The position numbers were made by a program, and so were the translations under genes. A stretch of 50,120 nt of DNA from an uncultured Arenicella sp. (GTDB lineage: Bacteria > Pseudomonadota > Gammaproteobacteria > Arenicellales > Arenicellaceae): contig CALAKU010000018.1 in assembly GCA_937922925.1 (NCBI GenBank), positions 1-50,120 of the forward strand, in the 5' to 3' direction. This document shows positions 28,848-36,040 of the stretch, in pieces. The notes under the pieces were generated by a model that ran no database searches, was not told the DNA's origin, and saw nothing but the letters and a program-made list of their open reading frames with translations. Each line of letters opens with the position of its first letter. Within the stretch, counting starts at the first letter, position 1.

Positions 28848-30017
28848 TTGGCTAAAACATTGCTAAGTAACAGCGAATCAACATCTGCGTCGACTTGTTT
28901 TGGTTCCGCTTTAATCCTTGGCGGAGGCGGAGCCAGAGCTGCATATCAAGTTGGCGTACTGAAAGCCATTGCCGAGATTCTGCCAGACGACTGCGACAAC
29001 CCGTTTCCAATTATCTGCGGCACCTCGGCCGGATCCATCAATACCGCGGCCTTGGCATCGAATGCCGACAACTTTAAGTTAGGCGTCCAAAAAATTTCTC
29101 ATGTTTGGTCGAACTTTGAGTTAGAACATGTCTTTTACGCCGATCGCAAAAACCTGTTCCGCCGTATTATGCGCTGGGCTTGGACGAATCTTGGCTTAGG
29201 CGACAGGCACAATGGCCCCAGCTCGCTACTTGATAATCAACCATTAAGGGAATTACTCGACGCCAACATCCAGTTTGACAAGATTGACCATCTTATTGAA
29301 CAAGGCGACCTTCAAGCCTATTGCATCACCGCATGCAGCTATACCTCGGGCGAGTCCACCACATTCTTTGACGGCCAAGCCAGCATTCAAAATTGGAAGC
29401 GCACACACCGAGAAGGCGTTCGTGAAAAGATCAATTTGGACCATTTGATGGCCTCTTCCGCCATTCCGGTGGTATTTCCATCGGTGAAAATCGATCACGA
29501 ATTTTACGGCGACGGCTCCATGCGCCAGATATCGCCGATTAGCCCGGCCTTACATTTAGGCGCCGAGAAAATCTTAATCATCGGCCTGCGTATGGAAAAA
29601 GACCAGCCCGAGCCTGATCGCCGAGAACGACAGCGCCCTTCGCTTGGGCAGATTTCAGGTTATGTGCTAGACACGCTTTTCTTGAACAGCTTGCATTCGG
29701 ATATAGAGCGAATGGAACGCATGAACCGTACCTTGCGCGAGGGCAATAAGAACAGTTCCGAAAACTTGAAAGTGATTGAACACTTGGTAATCAGCCCCTC
29801 GCAAGACATTGCCAATATCGCAATGAAACACTATTTAGAATTACCAAAGAGTTTTCGCACCGCGCTTAAGTTCCTTGGTATGTCCAAAGCGAATAGCCGA
29901 CGCTTTATTTCATACTTGATGTTTACCAAGACGTTTTGTCAGGAATTGATTGAACTTGGTTATCAAGACGCGCTTAATCAATCCGATGAGTTGCGCGCAT
30001 TTTTAAAACAGACTTAA
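28848..30017 (+). CDS. Patatin-like phospholipase
   Basis: A 389-residue patatin-family serine hydrolase. It has the oxyanion-hole motif GGGGARAAYQVGVL, the nucleophile elbow ICGTSAGSIN and the catalytic aspartate in YGDGSM, so the Ser-Asp dyad is complete. It probably hydrolyses phospholipids or other acyl esters. No signal peptide is seen, so it is likely cytosolic or at the inner face of the membrane. The start must be TTG at 28848, as the fold begins about 18 residues later and no ATG is available; GGGACGAG upstream can serve as a ribosome-binding site. The stop overlaps that of the convergent kinase gene. Confidence 0.88.
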   Translation: MAKTLLSNSESTSASTCFGSALILGGGGARAAYQVGVLKAIAEILPDDCDNPFPIICGTSAGSINTAALASNADNFKLGVQKISHVWSNFELEHVFYADRKNLFRRIMRWAWTNLGLGDRHNGPSSLLDNQPLRELLDANIQFDKIDHLIEQGDLQAYCITACSYTSGESTTFFDGQASIQNWKRTHREGVREKINLDHLMASSAIPVVFPSVKIDHEFYGDGSMRQISPISPALHLGAEKILIIGLRMEKDQPEPDRRERQRPSLGQISGYVLDTLFLNSLHSDIERMERMNRTLREGNKNSSENLKVIEHLVISPSQDIANIAMKHYLELPKSFRTALKFLGMSKANSRRFISYLMFTKTFCQELIELGYQDALNQSDELRAFLKQT

Positions 30018-30766
30018 TCTAATTCTAAAGCCTCAAACACGCTCAGAAGCTCTTGATCACCCTGCCAATTTTTCAAAAATCTGGCGCGATCTTTCGCGTG
30101 AGCCATTCGCCAGCTTAGTTGATTTTTGTGTTGTTGGGCGGCGTCCAGATCGATAAAAAATAGCCGACCTTCGTTCCAAATCAAATTACTGGCTTTAAGA
30201 TCGCCATGGCTTAACTTAGCATCACTCATTTGTTGAAACGCTACTTTGAGGGTCGCAGCCAAATCCGCTTGCTGGCTCGTCGCCAAGCTCGGCAACAATT
30301 CGATTACTTCGTCACCAGGCAAGAACTCACTAACAAAGTAAGCGGTACGGCGCAGCAAACTGGCTCGCTGCTCAAGCATAATAAGCGGCTGTGCGACATT
30401 CAAACCTGCCTTAGCGAATTTATAACTCAGCCGCCAGCTGCGGCTTGCACGCGAGCGCCGGACGCTGCGATTAAGGCGATGCCATTGATTCCGTGCGTTA
30501 TAGCGCTTAACAATCACAGCGCGTCCTTCAAGGCTTGCTTTGGCTACGGTAGTGGTACGGTCATGCTTAAGAACATCACCAGCATCGATTAAGGCATCCA
30601 ATGTGCTGGCATTTAAGTGTTCGCCCTGAACCTCATCGCTTGCCCACCAACAACGAGTCGAAAATTGTTGGTGATGCCCGAGCGCTTGCTCACACCATTG
30701 CGGTTGTATTTTACTTTCCAATGATGGCTCGAGCTTTGGAGTCTTGCGGCAAAGCGTCGTTGACAT
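30014..30766 (-). CDS. Lipopolysaccharide core kinase, Kdo/WaaP family
   Basis: A 250-residue member of the small LPS kinase family. It has the ATP-lysine region AVIVKRYN, a basic stretch (RLNRSVRRSRASRSWRLS), FVSEFLPGDEV and the catalytic loop LSHGDLKASNLIWN followed by FFIDLDAAQ as the DFG equivalent. In Pseudomonas, genes of this type follow waaP in the core cluster and are thought to phosphorylate core sugars; Kdo kinases share the fold. The start overlaps the end of the WaaG::WaaP gene by 56 bases, so they are co-transcribed. The exact acceptor sugar is uncertain. Confidence 0.82.
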   Translation of the reverse strand: MSTTLCRKTPKLEPSLESKIQPQWCEQALGHHQQFSTRCWWASDEVQGEHLNASTLDALIDAGDVLKHDRTTTVAKASLEGRAVIVKRYNARNQWHRLNRSVRRSRASRSWRLSYKFAKAGLNVAQPLIMLEQRASLLRRTAYFVSEFLPGDEVIELLPSLATSQQADLAATLKVAFQQMSDAKLSHGDLKASNLIWNEGRLFFIDLDAAQQHKNQLSWRMAHAKDRARFLKNWQGDQELLSVFEALELD

Positions 30767-32783
30767 CGTCTTTGTCTTGAATACGGCGCAATTTTTCTAT
30801 CGCCAATGCTTTGCGTTTTTGCGACTCATAAAGCTTGTTACCTCGGCTTTCCACTTTGCGCCAGAACGAGGCTTCGTCGCGAAGAATTTCTCTTAAAGGT
30901 CGACCACGATACAAGCTCATAAAACGCAAAAGGTCACGTTTAGTTAAGCCGATTTCTTTGCTGGAGTAATACAAACCTGCGATGTCCTTAACTGCCCAAC
31001 GTTCAGGCGTCTTACGGCGCATCTGCAAGCGATGCAAATCAATTAAGTACAACTTACTTGCTTGAGAAACTTGATCGTCGGCCTCAAAATGCGCATCGAG
31101 CAGAAAATGACATAGGTAGAAGTCGCGGTGATTGGCTCCATTTTCATGAATAACGCGCGCGGTTTCGACTACCTTTTTCAGTATCCAACGCTTTAAACGA
31201 ATCTGCTTTAGCGTTCTCGGCGGGTTGTCTTTCCAGTCGGTACAGAAATCTTCCAAACTGGTTTCGGTTGGCAACGCTTCGGTAATAATAAACGAATGCT
31301 TAGTCGCTGGATTTCGCCCGCGAATACCATAGGCAGCGACGGTCATGGTATCGATCTCTAAATCTTTGAGTCGATGCACACCATGCCATTCATTCAAAGC
31401 CCCAACGACCGGCGCTCTTAGATAAACAATATTTTTAAAAATTTCAGCCCAGCCAACCCCAGTATGAATCTTCAAGAAGTAATCTTTGTTGCCCCGCGTG
31501 AATCGCAAGGTACGTCGCCCCAACGCTTCTCGATAGACATTGCCTTCGATGTTCATAACCTGATAGAAAGAGTCTTCACCTTTGAGCGCTTGACGCAATT
31601 CATTGTTGATATACAAAGACTCGTCGCGCTTTTGGCGCTGCTCTTGCGGCAAATACAAGCGGCGTTGAGCGCAGGTCTGCTCAATAAAATCTACCGCTCG
31701 TTGAGGCATCACATAAAGACTGGGGTTCTTGCCATAACGTAAGCCGTTTTCTCGCCAGCTTACTTTTTCTTCCGACAAGAGCATTTGATGAAGCTTTTCG
31801 TTGAGCTCGTCTTGTGAAAACCGTTTGCGTAAAACATGGCCAGCTTGAGCGATTTTAATATGCGGCGCATAACCGCAAACCGGCGTTGCCAGTACCGGCA
31901 AGCCGGACACAATGGCCTCAAGCAGCACACCACCAGTGGTTTCAGCATAAGCCGGATGCAAAAGCATGTCGCCAGCCTTCATCAAGGCTGGTACATCTCG
32001 CCTGCCGCCCAAAAAGTGAACGTGCTTAGCAACATTTAATTTTTTTGAGATGCGCTGATAAAAGTCGATCTTATCTTGCCCAACAACAAATAATTTTGTT
32101 TTGTTAAGCAGCGCAGGCGGCAACGAGGACATTGCCGTAATCGCTCGATCTAAGCCTTTGGTTGCAAAACCAGAACCAATTAAGAGCACCAAATTTTCAT
32201 CTTCCTTGATCCCCAAAGACGCTCTTAAAGTAGCGCGATCGGGTAAGTTTTCTAAATTGCCCCAACGGGCTTTTTCAAGCGTTGGCGGGAGGTTTAAAAA
32301 GCGCGAATCTTGGGTTAGATAGTACTGCTGATAGATCAGTTTTTCGCGATTCGACAGCGACAGAATATTGGTTTTAGACGAAGCCTCAAAAACGCCTCGT
32401 TCAAAACTCGAGTAGTACAAAAAGCGGGGCGTAAAACGATAGAAGAATGAGTGCCGCAAGAAGGAGCGGCCCACGTAGCAATAATCACCGCAATAGTAAA
32501 TGTCCATGCCCGGGATTTTGTTAAAGCCGACCACCACGTCAAAGGAATGGTCGCTCAAAGCTTTGCGTACCTTGCGGTTAAAACTGTGCGCACGGGTATG
32601 GTTAGTCAAAGCAAAGTGTTTAATCACAACCACTTCGACGCCATCGGGCACCTCGCCCTCCCAACTGCCGGTAAAGACCGTCGCCTTGTGGCCGCGCTCT
32701 ACACACTCGTTAGCAATCCTCAGCATATCTAAGGACAAGCCGCTGTAGGGAAAGTGTTTATATAAACAAAAGGCGAAGTGCAT
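30711..32783 (-). CDS. waaG-waaP: Fused LPS core glucosyltransferase and heptose kinase (WaaG::WaaP)
   Basis: A single 690-residue reading frame. Residues 1 to about 375 match WaaG, the GT4 glucosyltransferase that adds glucose to heptose II-linked core: FAFCLYKHFPYSGLSLDMLRIA at the N-terminus, LIGSGFATKGLDRAI and the donor-binding HPAYAETTGGVLLEAIVSGLPV. Residues about 400-670 match WaaP, the kinase that phosphorylates heptose I: RRTLRFTRGNKDYFLKIH, ITEALPTETSLEDFC, the catalytic loop ANHRDFYLCHFLL and YLIDLHRLQMRRKTP. A short charged linker joins them. The two are separate adjacent genes in Pseudomonas and E. coli, so this is a gene fusion. Both active sites appear intact. Confidence 0.92.
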   Translation of the reverse strand: MHFAFCLYKHFPYSGLSLDMLRIANECVERGHKATVFTGSWEGEVPDGVEVVVIKHFALTNHTRAHSFNRKVRKALSDHSFDVVVGFNKIPGMDIYYCGDYCYVGRSFLRHSFFYRFTPRFLYYSSFERGVFEASSKTNILSLSNREKLIYQQYYLTQDSRFLNLPPTLEKARWGNLENLPDRATLRASLGIKEDENLVLLIGSGFATKGLDRAITAMSSLPPALLNKTKLFVVGQDKIDFYQRISKKLNVAKHVHFLGGRRDVPALMKAGDMLLHPAYAETTGGVLLEAIVSGLPVLATPVCGYAPHIKIAQAGHVLRKRFSQDELNEKLHQMLLSEEKVSWRENGLRYGKNPSLYVMPQRAVDFIEQTCAQRRLYLPQEQRQKRDESLYINNELRQALKGEDSFYQVMNIEGNVYREALGRRTLRFTRGNKDYFLKIHTGVGWAEIFKNIVYLRAPVVGALNEWHGVHRLKDLEIDTMTVAAYGIRGRNPATKHSFIITEALPTETSLEDFCTDWKDNPPRTLKQIRLKRWILKKVVETARVIHENGANHRDFYLCHFLLDAHFEADDQVSQASKLYLIDLHRLQMRRKTPERWAVKDIAGLYYSSKEIGLTKRDLLRFMSLYRGRPLREILRDEASFWRKVESRGNKLYESQKRKALAIEKLRRIQDKDDVNDALPQDSKARAIIGK

Positions 32784-32945: not shown

Positions 32946-33986
32946 CTAGACTATTTTCTGATAAAGCATGTCCCAAATGCGCTCTGCGGTTAAGCCCCCG
33001 TTTTTGCTGTCATTGGTATAGCACGGCGGCTCACTGTGCTCAGAGCCTAACAAAGAACAATCTTTGAGTAGGCAGGGCGAGCAAGGATATTGGCTTTGCA
33101 GTATCAGCTGGTTGTCGCCTAATGCGCCGGTTAAGCTGGCGTCGGTGCTCCCGTAAATTGAGACGCAGGGAGTTTTTAAAGCCGCCGCCATATGCCCAAG
33201 GCCCGTGTCGACAGAAACCGCACCTGCAACCTTTGAAATACGCTCTTTGAGTTGGCTTAGTGTTTGTTTTTCTAGCACGGTGACATGCGCGGCGTTTTTG
33301 GCCAATCGTAATGCGCGTTCATATTCCACTTGATTGCCCCAGGCCAATTCCACTTTGTAACCATCGCTTCTGGCTAGCTCAATAAGCGTAAGCCATAGTG
33401 ATTCGGGCAAATGCTTGCTGGCCCAAGTTGTGCCGTGAAAAAACATCACCGTTGTGTAGTCGCGTGCAGGCTCGCTGCCTCTCGAGGCTACACCGTAGTC
33501 GACTGTCTTTTGGTCAACAGTGTACCCAAACCCATCAGCGAACAATTGGCGTACACGAGTAATCGCATGTTCGGTTCGAGGGGCATCAATTTTTTTATGG
33601 TAAAGCCAAGCGGCGGGGGATTCTTTGATTGACTCTCCACTATAACCAATGCGTACACCGCCTCTTGCGAGTTTTGCGAATCGTGAAAAAACCGCACTTT
33701 TCATCAGACCCTGCGCGTCGATGATCGCGTCATAAGGCGTGCTGCGCAACTCTCGAGTAAAACCAAAAAACTCAACGACGGTGCTGAGCTTGAATCGACG
33801 CCAGCGCCTTGTGGCTACTGGGATTACTCGATGAACGCCCTGATGCCAAGCCGGTATTTCGGCAAAATTTTCTTCTACCATCCAATCAATTTGTGCCTCA
33901 GGATAAGTTTGCAGAAAGTCGCCTAGAGCCGGCATTACATGCAAGACATCGCCCATAGACGTAAGCTTTACAACTAATATCTTCAT
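32946..33986 (-). CDS. waaC: ADP-heptose:LPS heptosyltransferase I
   Basis: A 346-residue GT9 enzyme that adds the first heptose to Kdo2-lipid A. The N-terminus MKILVVKLTSMGDVLHVMPAL is diagnostic for WaaC, and the donor-binding region includes SVDTGLGHMAAAL and SIYGSTDASLTGALG. The ATG at 33986 overlaps the waaF stop (ATGA) and gives the usual N-terminus; an upstream extension only shadows waaF. A 162-base gap separates it from waaG::waaP, which holds no gene and a CCTCTGCGCT direct repeat. Confidence 0.95.
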   Translation of the reverse strand: MKILVVKLTSMGDVLHVMPALGDFLQTYPEAQIDWMVEENFAEIPAWHQGVHRVIPVATRRWRRFKLSTVVEFFGFTRELRSTPYDAIIDAQGLMKSAVFSRFAKLARGGVRIGYSGESIKESPAAWLYHKKIDAPRTEHAITRVRQLFADGFGYTVDQKTVDYGVASRGSEPARDYTTVMFFHGTTWASKHLPESLWLTLIELARSDGYKVELAWGNQVEYERALRLAKNAAHVTVLEKQTLSQLKERISKVAGAVSVDTGLGHMAAALKTPCVSIYGSTDASLTGALGDNQLILQSQYPCSPCLLKDCSLLGSEHSEPPCYTNDSKNGGLTAERIWDMLYQKIV

Positions 33987-35020
33987 GCCAGCGACTCGCA
34001 CAATGCCAGAACTTGTGGCGGCTCTAGCTCTTGCATGCAGCGATGATGTTGCAAAGGGCAATCGCGTTCAAAACACGGGCTGCACTCAATCGTTCTTTGA
34101 GCAATAACATGATTCGGGCTTAGCGGCGGCGTGTGACCGGGGTCGGTAGAACCATAGATGGCAATTAATGGAATCTGCAAGGCCGCGGCGATGTGCATCA
34201 ATCCTGAGTCATTGGCGATCACGCGCTGCGCGACCGACATGAGATCAACCGCTTCCGGCAACTGGGTTAAACCGGCCAAACTGGTCAACTGACCTTGGCA
34301 CTCGGTATTAATTTGCTCGCAAACCACGCGATCTTTGTTCGAGCCTAATAACCACACTTGCCAGCCCGATTCCAAATGCTGGGCCGCGACGGCAGCGTAA
34401 TAGTGCGCTGGCCATTGTTTGGATGGGCCAAATTCAGCGCCGGGGCACAAGACTAAAATCGGCTTATCTCGATTTAGGTCAAACTTATCCAGCACTGAAT
34501 CGACTTGCTGATCATCGACTGCCAATTGAGGTATTGGGATAGACGCCTTCTCTGTCGGCGCCGACTCAGGGTTCAGACCCAATGCCAAAAACCGTTGAAC
34601 TGTCATTGGTAGTACGTGCTTTGACAGCCTGCGAATATCGTTAAGCAAACCCCAGCGTTGCTCGCCAACAAAGCCGGTGCGCTTAGGGATTCTGGCAAGC
34701 GCTGGCACTAATGCGGCCTTGAGAGAATTTGGCAATACAATGGCGTGATCGTATGGAGTTTGCCGCAATTGCCTTGCTAACTGCCACCGTTTTAGCAAAC
34801 TGAGTTTGCCATGCTCGAACGGCGCGAAAACTAATTGATTGACCTGCGGCATACGATCAATCAGAGCCGCTGTCCAAGCCGGGGCGAGCACATCAATCAG
34901 CGCCTGAGGATTTTGTTCTTTGAGCGCAATAAACAAACTTTGCGCCATCACCATATCGCCAACCCATGACGGGCCAATCACTAAAATTCGCTGAACTGTT
35001 GCTCGCTTAGCAGTAGGCAT
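33983..35020 (-). CDS. waaF: ADP-heptose:LPS heptosyltransferase II
   Basis: A 345-residue GT9 enzyme that adds the second heptose of the inner core. RILVIGPSWVGDMVMAQSLF is the WaaF N-terminus; LCPGAEFGPSKQWPAHYYA and VIANDSGLMHIAAALQIPLIAIYGSTDPGH carry the ADP-heptose site. The C-terminal cysteines CSPCFERDCP are typical of WaaF. It lies between ilvE and waaC as in Pseudomonas and is translationally coupled to waaC. Confidence 0.96.
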   Translation of the reverse strand: MPTAKRATVQRILVIGPSWVGDMVMAQSLFIALKEQNPQALIDVLAPAWTAALIDRMPQVNQLVFAPFEHGKLSLLKRWQLARQLRQTPYDHAIVLPNSLKAALVPALARIPKRTGFVGEQRWGLLNDIRRLSKHVLPMTVQRFLALGLNPESAPTEKASIPIPQLAVDDQQVDSVLDKFDLNRDKPILVLCPGAEFGPSKQWPAHYYAAVAAQHLESGWQVWLLGSNKDRVVCEQINTECQGQLTSLAGLTQLPEAVDLMSVAQRVIANDSGLMHIAAALQIPLIAIYGSTDPGHTPPLSPNHVIAQRTIECSPCFERDCPLQHHRCMQELEPPQVLALCESLA

Positions 35021-35116: not shown

Positions 35117-36040
35117 TTATACGTAGCTCAACCAATCCTTGCGTGCGGCATCGCGACCAAACACCACATCGAAGTAGCGCTCTTGAATTTCTTTGGTCAA
35201 GGGGCCGCGCCCGCCATCACCTAAGACGCGATCATCTAAAGATTGGATTGGCGTTACTTCGGCAGCCGTCCCCGTGAAAAACGCTTCGTCTGCCGTATAT
35301 ATCTCATCCCGCGTAATCTGTTTTTCTATTAACTCAAGGCTCATGTCTTTAGTCAGAATATCGGCGATGGTGTCGCGAGTAATGCCTTCTAAGGCTGAGG
35401 TTAGGCTAGGCGTATACACCTTGCCACGTCGAATAATAAAAATATTTTCACCACTGCCTTCAGCGACGTAGCCATACGAATCCAACATCAGCGCTTCGTC
35501 GTAACCAGCGGCATCGGCCTCTTGCAATGCCATCATCGAGTTTGTGTAGTGCCCATTAGTTTTGGCTTTGGCCATGTTGCTATTCACATGATGGCGACTA
35601 AACGAAGATGTTTTAACTCGAATCCCTTTTTCAAGGCCATCTTCACCGAGATAGGCGCCCCACTCCCAAGCGGCGATCATCATATGAACCTTCAAGCCTT
35701 TGGCATGCAACCCCATGGCCTCGGAACCGTAATACGCCATTGGGCGCAGATAAGCTGATTTGAGTTCATTTTTCTTAACAATTTCCAACTGCGCTTTATT
35801 TAACTCTTCGGCCGAAAAGGGAATCTTCATGCCCATGATTTTGGCCGACTGAAACAAGCGCTCGGTATGACGATCTAGCCGAAAAATCGCCGGGCCATCC
35901 GCGGTTTCATACGCCCGCACACCCTCAAAGACTCCCATTCCATAGTGTAATGTGTGAGTAAGTACGTGGATTTTAGCGTCGCGCCAATCAACGTATTCGC
36001 CATCCATCCAAATGAAACCATCACGGTCTGCAAAAGACAT
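35117..36040 (-). CDS. ilvE: Branched-chain amino acid aminotransferase
   Basis: A 307-residue class IV PLP aminotransferase that makes leucine, isoleucine and valine from their keto acids. The N-terminal FIWMDGEYVDWRDAKIHVLTHTLHYGMGVFEG block is typical, the PLP lysine lies in MAKAKTNGHYTNSM, and EGSGENIFII and FFTGTAAEVTPI are conserved. Length matches E. coli IlvE (309). GGAGA precedes the start. Its position just upstream of waaF is the order seen in Pseudomonas. Confidence 0.95.
   Translation of the reverse strand: MSFADRDGFIWMDGEYVDWRDAKIHVLTHTLHYGMGVFEGVRAYETADGPAIFRLDRHTERLFQSAKIMGMKIPFSAEELNKAQLEIVKKNELKSAYLRPMAYYGSEAMGLHAKGLKVHMMIAAWEWGAYLGEDGLEKGIRVKTSSFSRHHVNSNMAKAKTNGHYTNSMMALQEADAAGYDEALMLDSYGYVAEGSGENIFIIRRGKVYTPSLTSALEGITRDTIADILTKDMSLELIEKQITRDEIYTADEAFFTGTAAEVTPIQSLDDRVLGDGGRGPLTKEIQERYFDVVFGRDAARKDWLSYV

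Follow-up and report, generated by a model that had tools for sequence, protein, structure and literature searches.

Several enzymes of lipopolysaccharide (LPS) assembly are bifunctional: HldE combines a kinase and an adenylyltransferase for ADP-heptose synthesis, and WbdD a kinase and a methyltransferase. Like the protein described here, both carry two LPS-assembly steps on one chain, but their domains and steps are different. The closest described systems are the separate waaG and waaP genes. Pseudomonas (PA5010/PA5009) and the Enterobacteriaceae have this pair too, arranged in the same order, and the Pseudomonas pair also adjoins waaC and waaF. When separate, the two genes are two open frames which overlap in different frames or, in Endozoicomonas, share one frame interrupted by a stop. 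According to PMC4942254 and PMC8510554, E. coli WaaP prefers as its substrate the inner core that bears the first outer-core sugar, and the phosphate on heptose I (HepI) is down by about 60% without waaG (citing Yethon 2000). P. aeruginosa WaaG (PaWaaG), whose donor site is formed by Y97/T208/N282/T283/T285, hydrolyses UDP-GalNAc and not UDP-glucose, glucose-using WaaG enzymes carry Arg208/Ala283/Ile285, and E. coli waaG is not complemented by the P. aeruginosa enzyme (PMC10579960). P. aeruginosa WaaP (PaWaaP) has the kinase motifs K51, E78, HRD161-163, H168 and D188-L-H and holds acyl-ACP by seven basic residues (PMC6147952).

We analysed a window of 50,120 nucleotides from an uncultured Arenicella sp. 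(contig CALAKU010000018.1, assembly GCA_937922925.1), in which waaG and waaP form a single gene (Table 1). The frame runs from an ATG at 32783 to a TAA at 30713-30711, with 690 codons and no internal stop; the original prediction had given this uninterrupted frame correctly, without its strand, which is minus. The gene lies after waaF and waaC, as does waaG in Pseudomonas. The proposed order ilvE-waaF-waaC-fusion-kinase, an otherwise conserved operon, is borne out by the profile matches of the neighbours. The ATG of waaC (33983) corresponds to residue 27 of the listed open reading frame and overlaps the waaF stop, and ilvE is a conserved neighbour in many relatives. The second kinase gene, named K2 here, is located outside the fusion and overlaps its end; it is found downstream of the fusion in most relatives. 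The waaF-waaC-fusion-K2 context is conserved. The K2 frame overlaps the fusion end by at most 56 bases (window 30721-30766), and a possible alternative TTG start at 30721 would overlap the last codons of the fusion. K2 also resembles part of a frame of about 480-500 aa located 3' of waaP in other genomes. A scan for promoters and terminators returned sites no more numerous than in shuffled sequences.

Table 1. Features of the fusion locus (window coordinates)
Feature	Position	Strand	Basis
waaG-waaP fusion gene	30711..32783	minus	one open frame, 690 aa
WaaG-like GT4 (GT-B fold) domain, residues 1-367	31683..32783	minus	homology, catalytic residues, structure match 8b5s
linker, ~residues 368-393	31605..31682	minus	loop 377-389 of low model confidence
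WaaP/RfaP heptose-I-kinase-like domain, residues 394-659	30807..31604	minus	RfaP and Kdo profiles, motifs, 6dfl
variable C-terminal tail, residues 660-690, and stop	30711..30806	minus	alignment, model, pN/pS
K2, second Kdo/WaaP-superfamily kinase	30014..30766	minus	Pfam Kdo 41.4 bits; 250 aa from ATG
waaC, heptosyltransferase I	32946..33983	minus	TIGR02193 300 bits vs cutoff 185
waaF, heptosyltransferase II	33983..35020	minus	TIGR02195 451 bits vs cutoff 135
ilvE, branched-chain amino acid transaminase	35117..36040	minus	TIGR01122 441 bits vs cutoff 246

The N-terminal half is homologous to WaaG over the full WaaG length (residues 3-367) and 44% identical to solved WaaG structures, with E = 1.7e-99 against E. 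coli RfaG (2iv7) and E ~1e-95 against P. aeruginosa WaaG (8b5q/8b5s). Fold, length and catalytic residues are common to these enzymes and to the fusion, in which, unlike in E. coli and P. aeruginosa, WaaG is the N-terminal half of a longer chain. The catalytic and nucleotide-binding residues D19, K209, E281 and E289 are all present, as is D100, and these five positions are invariant in the WaaG half of 11 aligned fusions. The donor site (Y97, T208, T282, T283 and G285) differs, in contrast, from that of the E. coli enzyme, since T208/T282/T283/G285 replace the set Arg208/Ala282/Ala283/Ile285. Three of the five residues of the P. aeruginosa type (Tyr97/Thr208/Asn282/Thr283/Thr285) are conserved, namely Y97, T208 and T283, whereas the genus of the window departs from the PaWaaG motif at the two other positions (T282 for Asn and G285 for Thr); the full Pseudomonas set (5/5) is present in many other fusions of the order. 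Because the donor-site residues follow UDP-GalNAc-specific PaWaaG and the E. coli glucose residues are absent, the donor is more likely an N-acetylhexosamine, e.g. GalNAc, than glucose, and the label "glucosyltransferase" of the original prediction is doubtful. As PaWaaG fails to complement E. coli waaG, acceptor specificity is not readable from homology.

The C-terminal half matches the NCBIfam RfaP equivalog profile over residues 390-659 (346.4 bits for a curated cutoff of 170), the Pfam Kdo/WaaP domain over residues 409-625 (E = 2.6e-44) and the sequence of PaWaaP (6dfl, E = 2.2e-71). The PaWaaP motifs align to K438, E465, H552-R553-D554, H559 and D582-L583-H584, which are invariant across 11 fusions (nearly so for L583). 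The kinase fold, the K/E/HRD/DLH motifs, the second-metal His and most of the acyl-ACP docking residues are common to WaaP and to the fusion, but WaaP (6dfl) is a separate gene product whereas the fusion kinase is preceded by a WaaG domain. By alignment, six of the seven positions that contact acyl-ACP in PaWaaP are basic (K531, R532, K615, R616, R620 and R631) and the seventh (PaWaaP 229) is Ser623; judging from these residues, the WaaP half probably binds acyl-ACP as P. aeruginosa WaaP does. With all catalytic residues in place, the view that the frame joins a WaaG to a WaaP half, each with its active site whole, was upheld. The own genome, a draft in 104 contigs that is 87.6% complete (a second copy could be missing), gave no other match to the fusion query. 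Since no other WaaG or WaaP was found there, both activities are expected to reside in the fusion. Beyond the fusion, PF06293 matches K2 and one further, weak candidate (G000:C70:4805-5236, 23.3 bits, inside a 930-aa frame).

An AlphaFold2 model built on an alignment of 24 fusions (mean pLDDT 88.5, pTM 0.82) shows two complete domains and a short, weakly modelled linker, pLDDT falling below 50 solely at residues 380-383 and 677-690 (segments of at least three residues). The model matches PaWaaG 8b5s with Z 41.0 and an rmsd of 1.6 Å over 360 residues, and PaWaaP 6dfl with a Foldseek E of 2.7e-22 and a TM of 0.88 on target length; the VIA-align matches listed are all of the glycosyltransferase fold (WaaG half), and the WaaP fold is drawn from the Foldseek match. 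The pTM value suggests that the relative placement of the two domains is predicted too, not proven fixed. Both halves are clearly under strong purifying selection. Within the genus, pN/pS is 0.13 for the WaaG half, 0.11 for the WaaP half, 0.36 for the linker and 0.68 for the C-terminal tail, these values being rough because synonymous sites are saturated within the genus. Nearly every catalytic residue of the two halves shows little or no variation across 24 diverse fusions. The linker can be aligned within the genus, varies in sequence and differs in length between families (13-49 aa from the WaaG end to the Kdo start). In most of the genus the last three residues are [IV]GK, and the tail is otherwise variable.

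The order-wide search covered 109 genomes: 70 have a strong match and 58 have, among the matches listed, an open frame that includes both halves. The frame also stays open across the junction (~residues 368-393, window 31605-31682) in 12 other genomes of the genus, with 79-86% identity. In several genomes of the order that have no full-span frame, the match is located at a contig end. The only split copy in the genus (G011, L014/L031) is broken by a frame change at about residue 205-209, within WaaG and away from the junction. Two other genomes of the order (G024 and G034) have a WaaG-K2 fusion in place of WaaG-WaaP, and in two genomes of family f9, genus g23 (G060 and G062), waaG comes from a different branch and is unjoined to waaP. 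Among 276 genomes sampled across the class, G154 and G206, both outside the own genus, carry an intact fusion and G364 a broken one, and in a phylum-wide sample of 397 genomes the fusion was shown only by the window's own genome. Two genomes of this last sample with odd frame lengths (G507 and G555) were considered as possible fusions and rejected, each having two separate frames. The plasmid search gave no fusion; five records labelled E. coli match separate pieces that together make up most of the query, annotated in one record (H3) as separate glycosyltransferase and rfaP genes, and the remaining plasmid matches listed are distant and partial. The original prediction would have fallen if full-length homologues were widely known and already described. 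Homologues are indeed many, but no description of a WaaG-WaaP fusion was found in the open literature searched, and an annotation-level record (e.g. UniProt) may exist. The components, the operon, the gene order and the pathway are well known; the fused architecture is what is new.

In a tree of both halves, the 23 Arenicellales-type fusions form one clade (100/98). The fusions L052, L057 and L104 fall among unfused pairs, and four changes are required on the tree. One common origin for all WaaG-WaaP fusions was rejected, as one clade for all of them gave p = 0.0003 in the AU test, for a group that was chosen after seeing the tree and in which L052 and L104 sit on long branches and are less secure. 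The cleanest second origin is L057, which comes from one MAG and has an unfused sister, L067 (support 100/99). One Arenicellales-type clade, extending down to about 40-50% identity, has the fusion as its ancestral state, and no clear reversion to separate genes was found within the order-wide fusion clade. The fusion had been called "recent or lineage-specific": the identity range and the tree contradict the first term, and the second is fair for this large order-level clade. The same pair was fused independently in other lineages; the join is genuine and old, and it has more than one origin. It is both convergent and widespread in one mostly marine, mostly uncultured order. In Endozoicomonas and others (L047, L048, L049, L051, L054 and L083), the waaP frame continues that of waaG immediately behind a stop codon, the only one separating the two, so that one substitution (stop loss) is an easy route to fusion. 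The Arenicellales fusion may have arisen in this way, by loss of the waaG stop. Stop-codon readthrough in the bacteria carrying these six loci would yield a WaaG-WaaP fusion protein.

We infer both activities, as well as the donor, the reaction order and any gain from co-localisation: the gene very probably encodes a bifunctional LPS inner-core enzyme, which would transfer a sugar to heptose II (HepII) and then phosphorylate HepI. The N-terminal GT-B domain would use a UDP-sugar to add the first outer-core residue onto HepII, and the C-terminal protein-kinase-like domain would then act on HepI, probably with acyl-ACP bound. An artefact of assembly or a frameshift joining two genes is a thought that the fragmented state of the draft (104 contigs, 87.6% complete) invites, but it deserves practically no weight, given that the same frame is open in the 12 further genomes of the genus and in 58 genomes of the order in all (among the matches listed), and that the linker is alignable within the genus. 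These full-span frames exclude a chance open frame as well as an assembly error, and the junction, where a frameshift or an assembly error would have undone the original prediction, is free of both. It is also very unlikely that one half has become inactive, with a scaffolding or regulatory role towards the other. The genus-specific donor-site changes T282/G285, and the loss of Asp19 from the WaaG that L058/L066 join to another kinase, could be read in this way; the window protein, however, keeps all catalytic residues, nearly all of them (near-)invariant across the 24 diverse fusions, and pN/pS is equally low in both halves.

For the bifunctional enzyme, joining the waaG-waaP operon pair would fix the enzyme ratio and, at the inner face of the inner membrane, would keep the two active sites close to one and the same lipid A-core molecule. 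As WaaP of E. coli prefers the WaaG product as its substrate, the fusion would join consecutive steps, arranged from N- to C-terminus in reaction order, and the channelling idea of the original prediction is sensible. A stricter form of it, in which a coupled enzyme with a fixed inter-domain arrangement hands the lipid A-core directly from one site to the other, is doubtful. If coupling were true, acyl-ACP on the kinase half may link core completion to the fatty acyl supply, and selection for coupling would be what fused waaG or waaP to neighbouring core kinases several times independently. This part of the explanation, and not the presence of two activities, is opposed by a neutral loss of the waaG stop, which would leave two independent enzymes on one chain, without channelling or fixed geometry. 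We consider such a loss a serious possibility, if short of an even chance: one substitution could fuse the pair in Endozoicomonas and others, and the linker varies in sequence and length. Drift, however, only weakly predicts a fusion kept order-wide with no clear reversion and gained repeatedly elsewhere, and the pTM of the two-domain chain hints at a defined arrangement.

Fusions that arose independently and were long kept are "Rosetta stone" evidence that the separate WaaG and WaaP proteins may act next to, or in contact with, each other. This concerns bacteria such as Pseudomonas and E. coli, in which WaaP depends on the WaaG product and is itself either essential or required for an intact outer membrane. 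The single chain could also be a tool to study a WaaP-type kinase together with the glycosyltransferase linked to it; such a kinase has been reported to be insoluble when acyl-ACP is absent.

Other genes of the cluster are fused too. In L058:5968-7884 and L066:170-2089, from Arenicellales-related genomes, WaaG is joined to a K2-type kinase and not to WaaP, and the otherwise nearly invariant Asp19 of this WaaG is replaced by Val; no separate WaaP was found at E 1e-30 in G024 and G034, the genomes matching these two loci. A 741-aa frame in L116/L123:2402-4624 is composed of WaaP and further kinase-like sequence, the last part being K2-like, and is followed by a separate waaG. Finally, tandem WaaG-like domains in one open frame, followed by waaP, are found in L079:782-3043, L090:5464-8229 and L092:5668-8229, the second WaaG copy being much diverged in L090 and L092.
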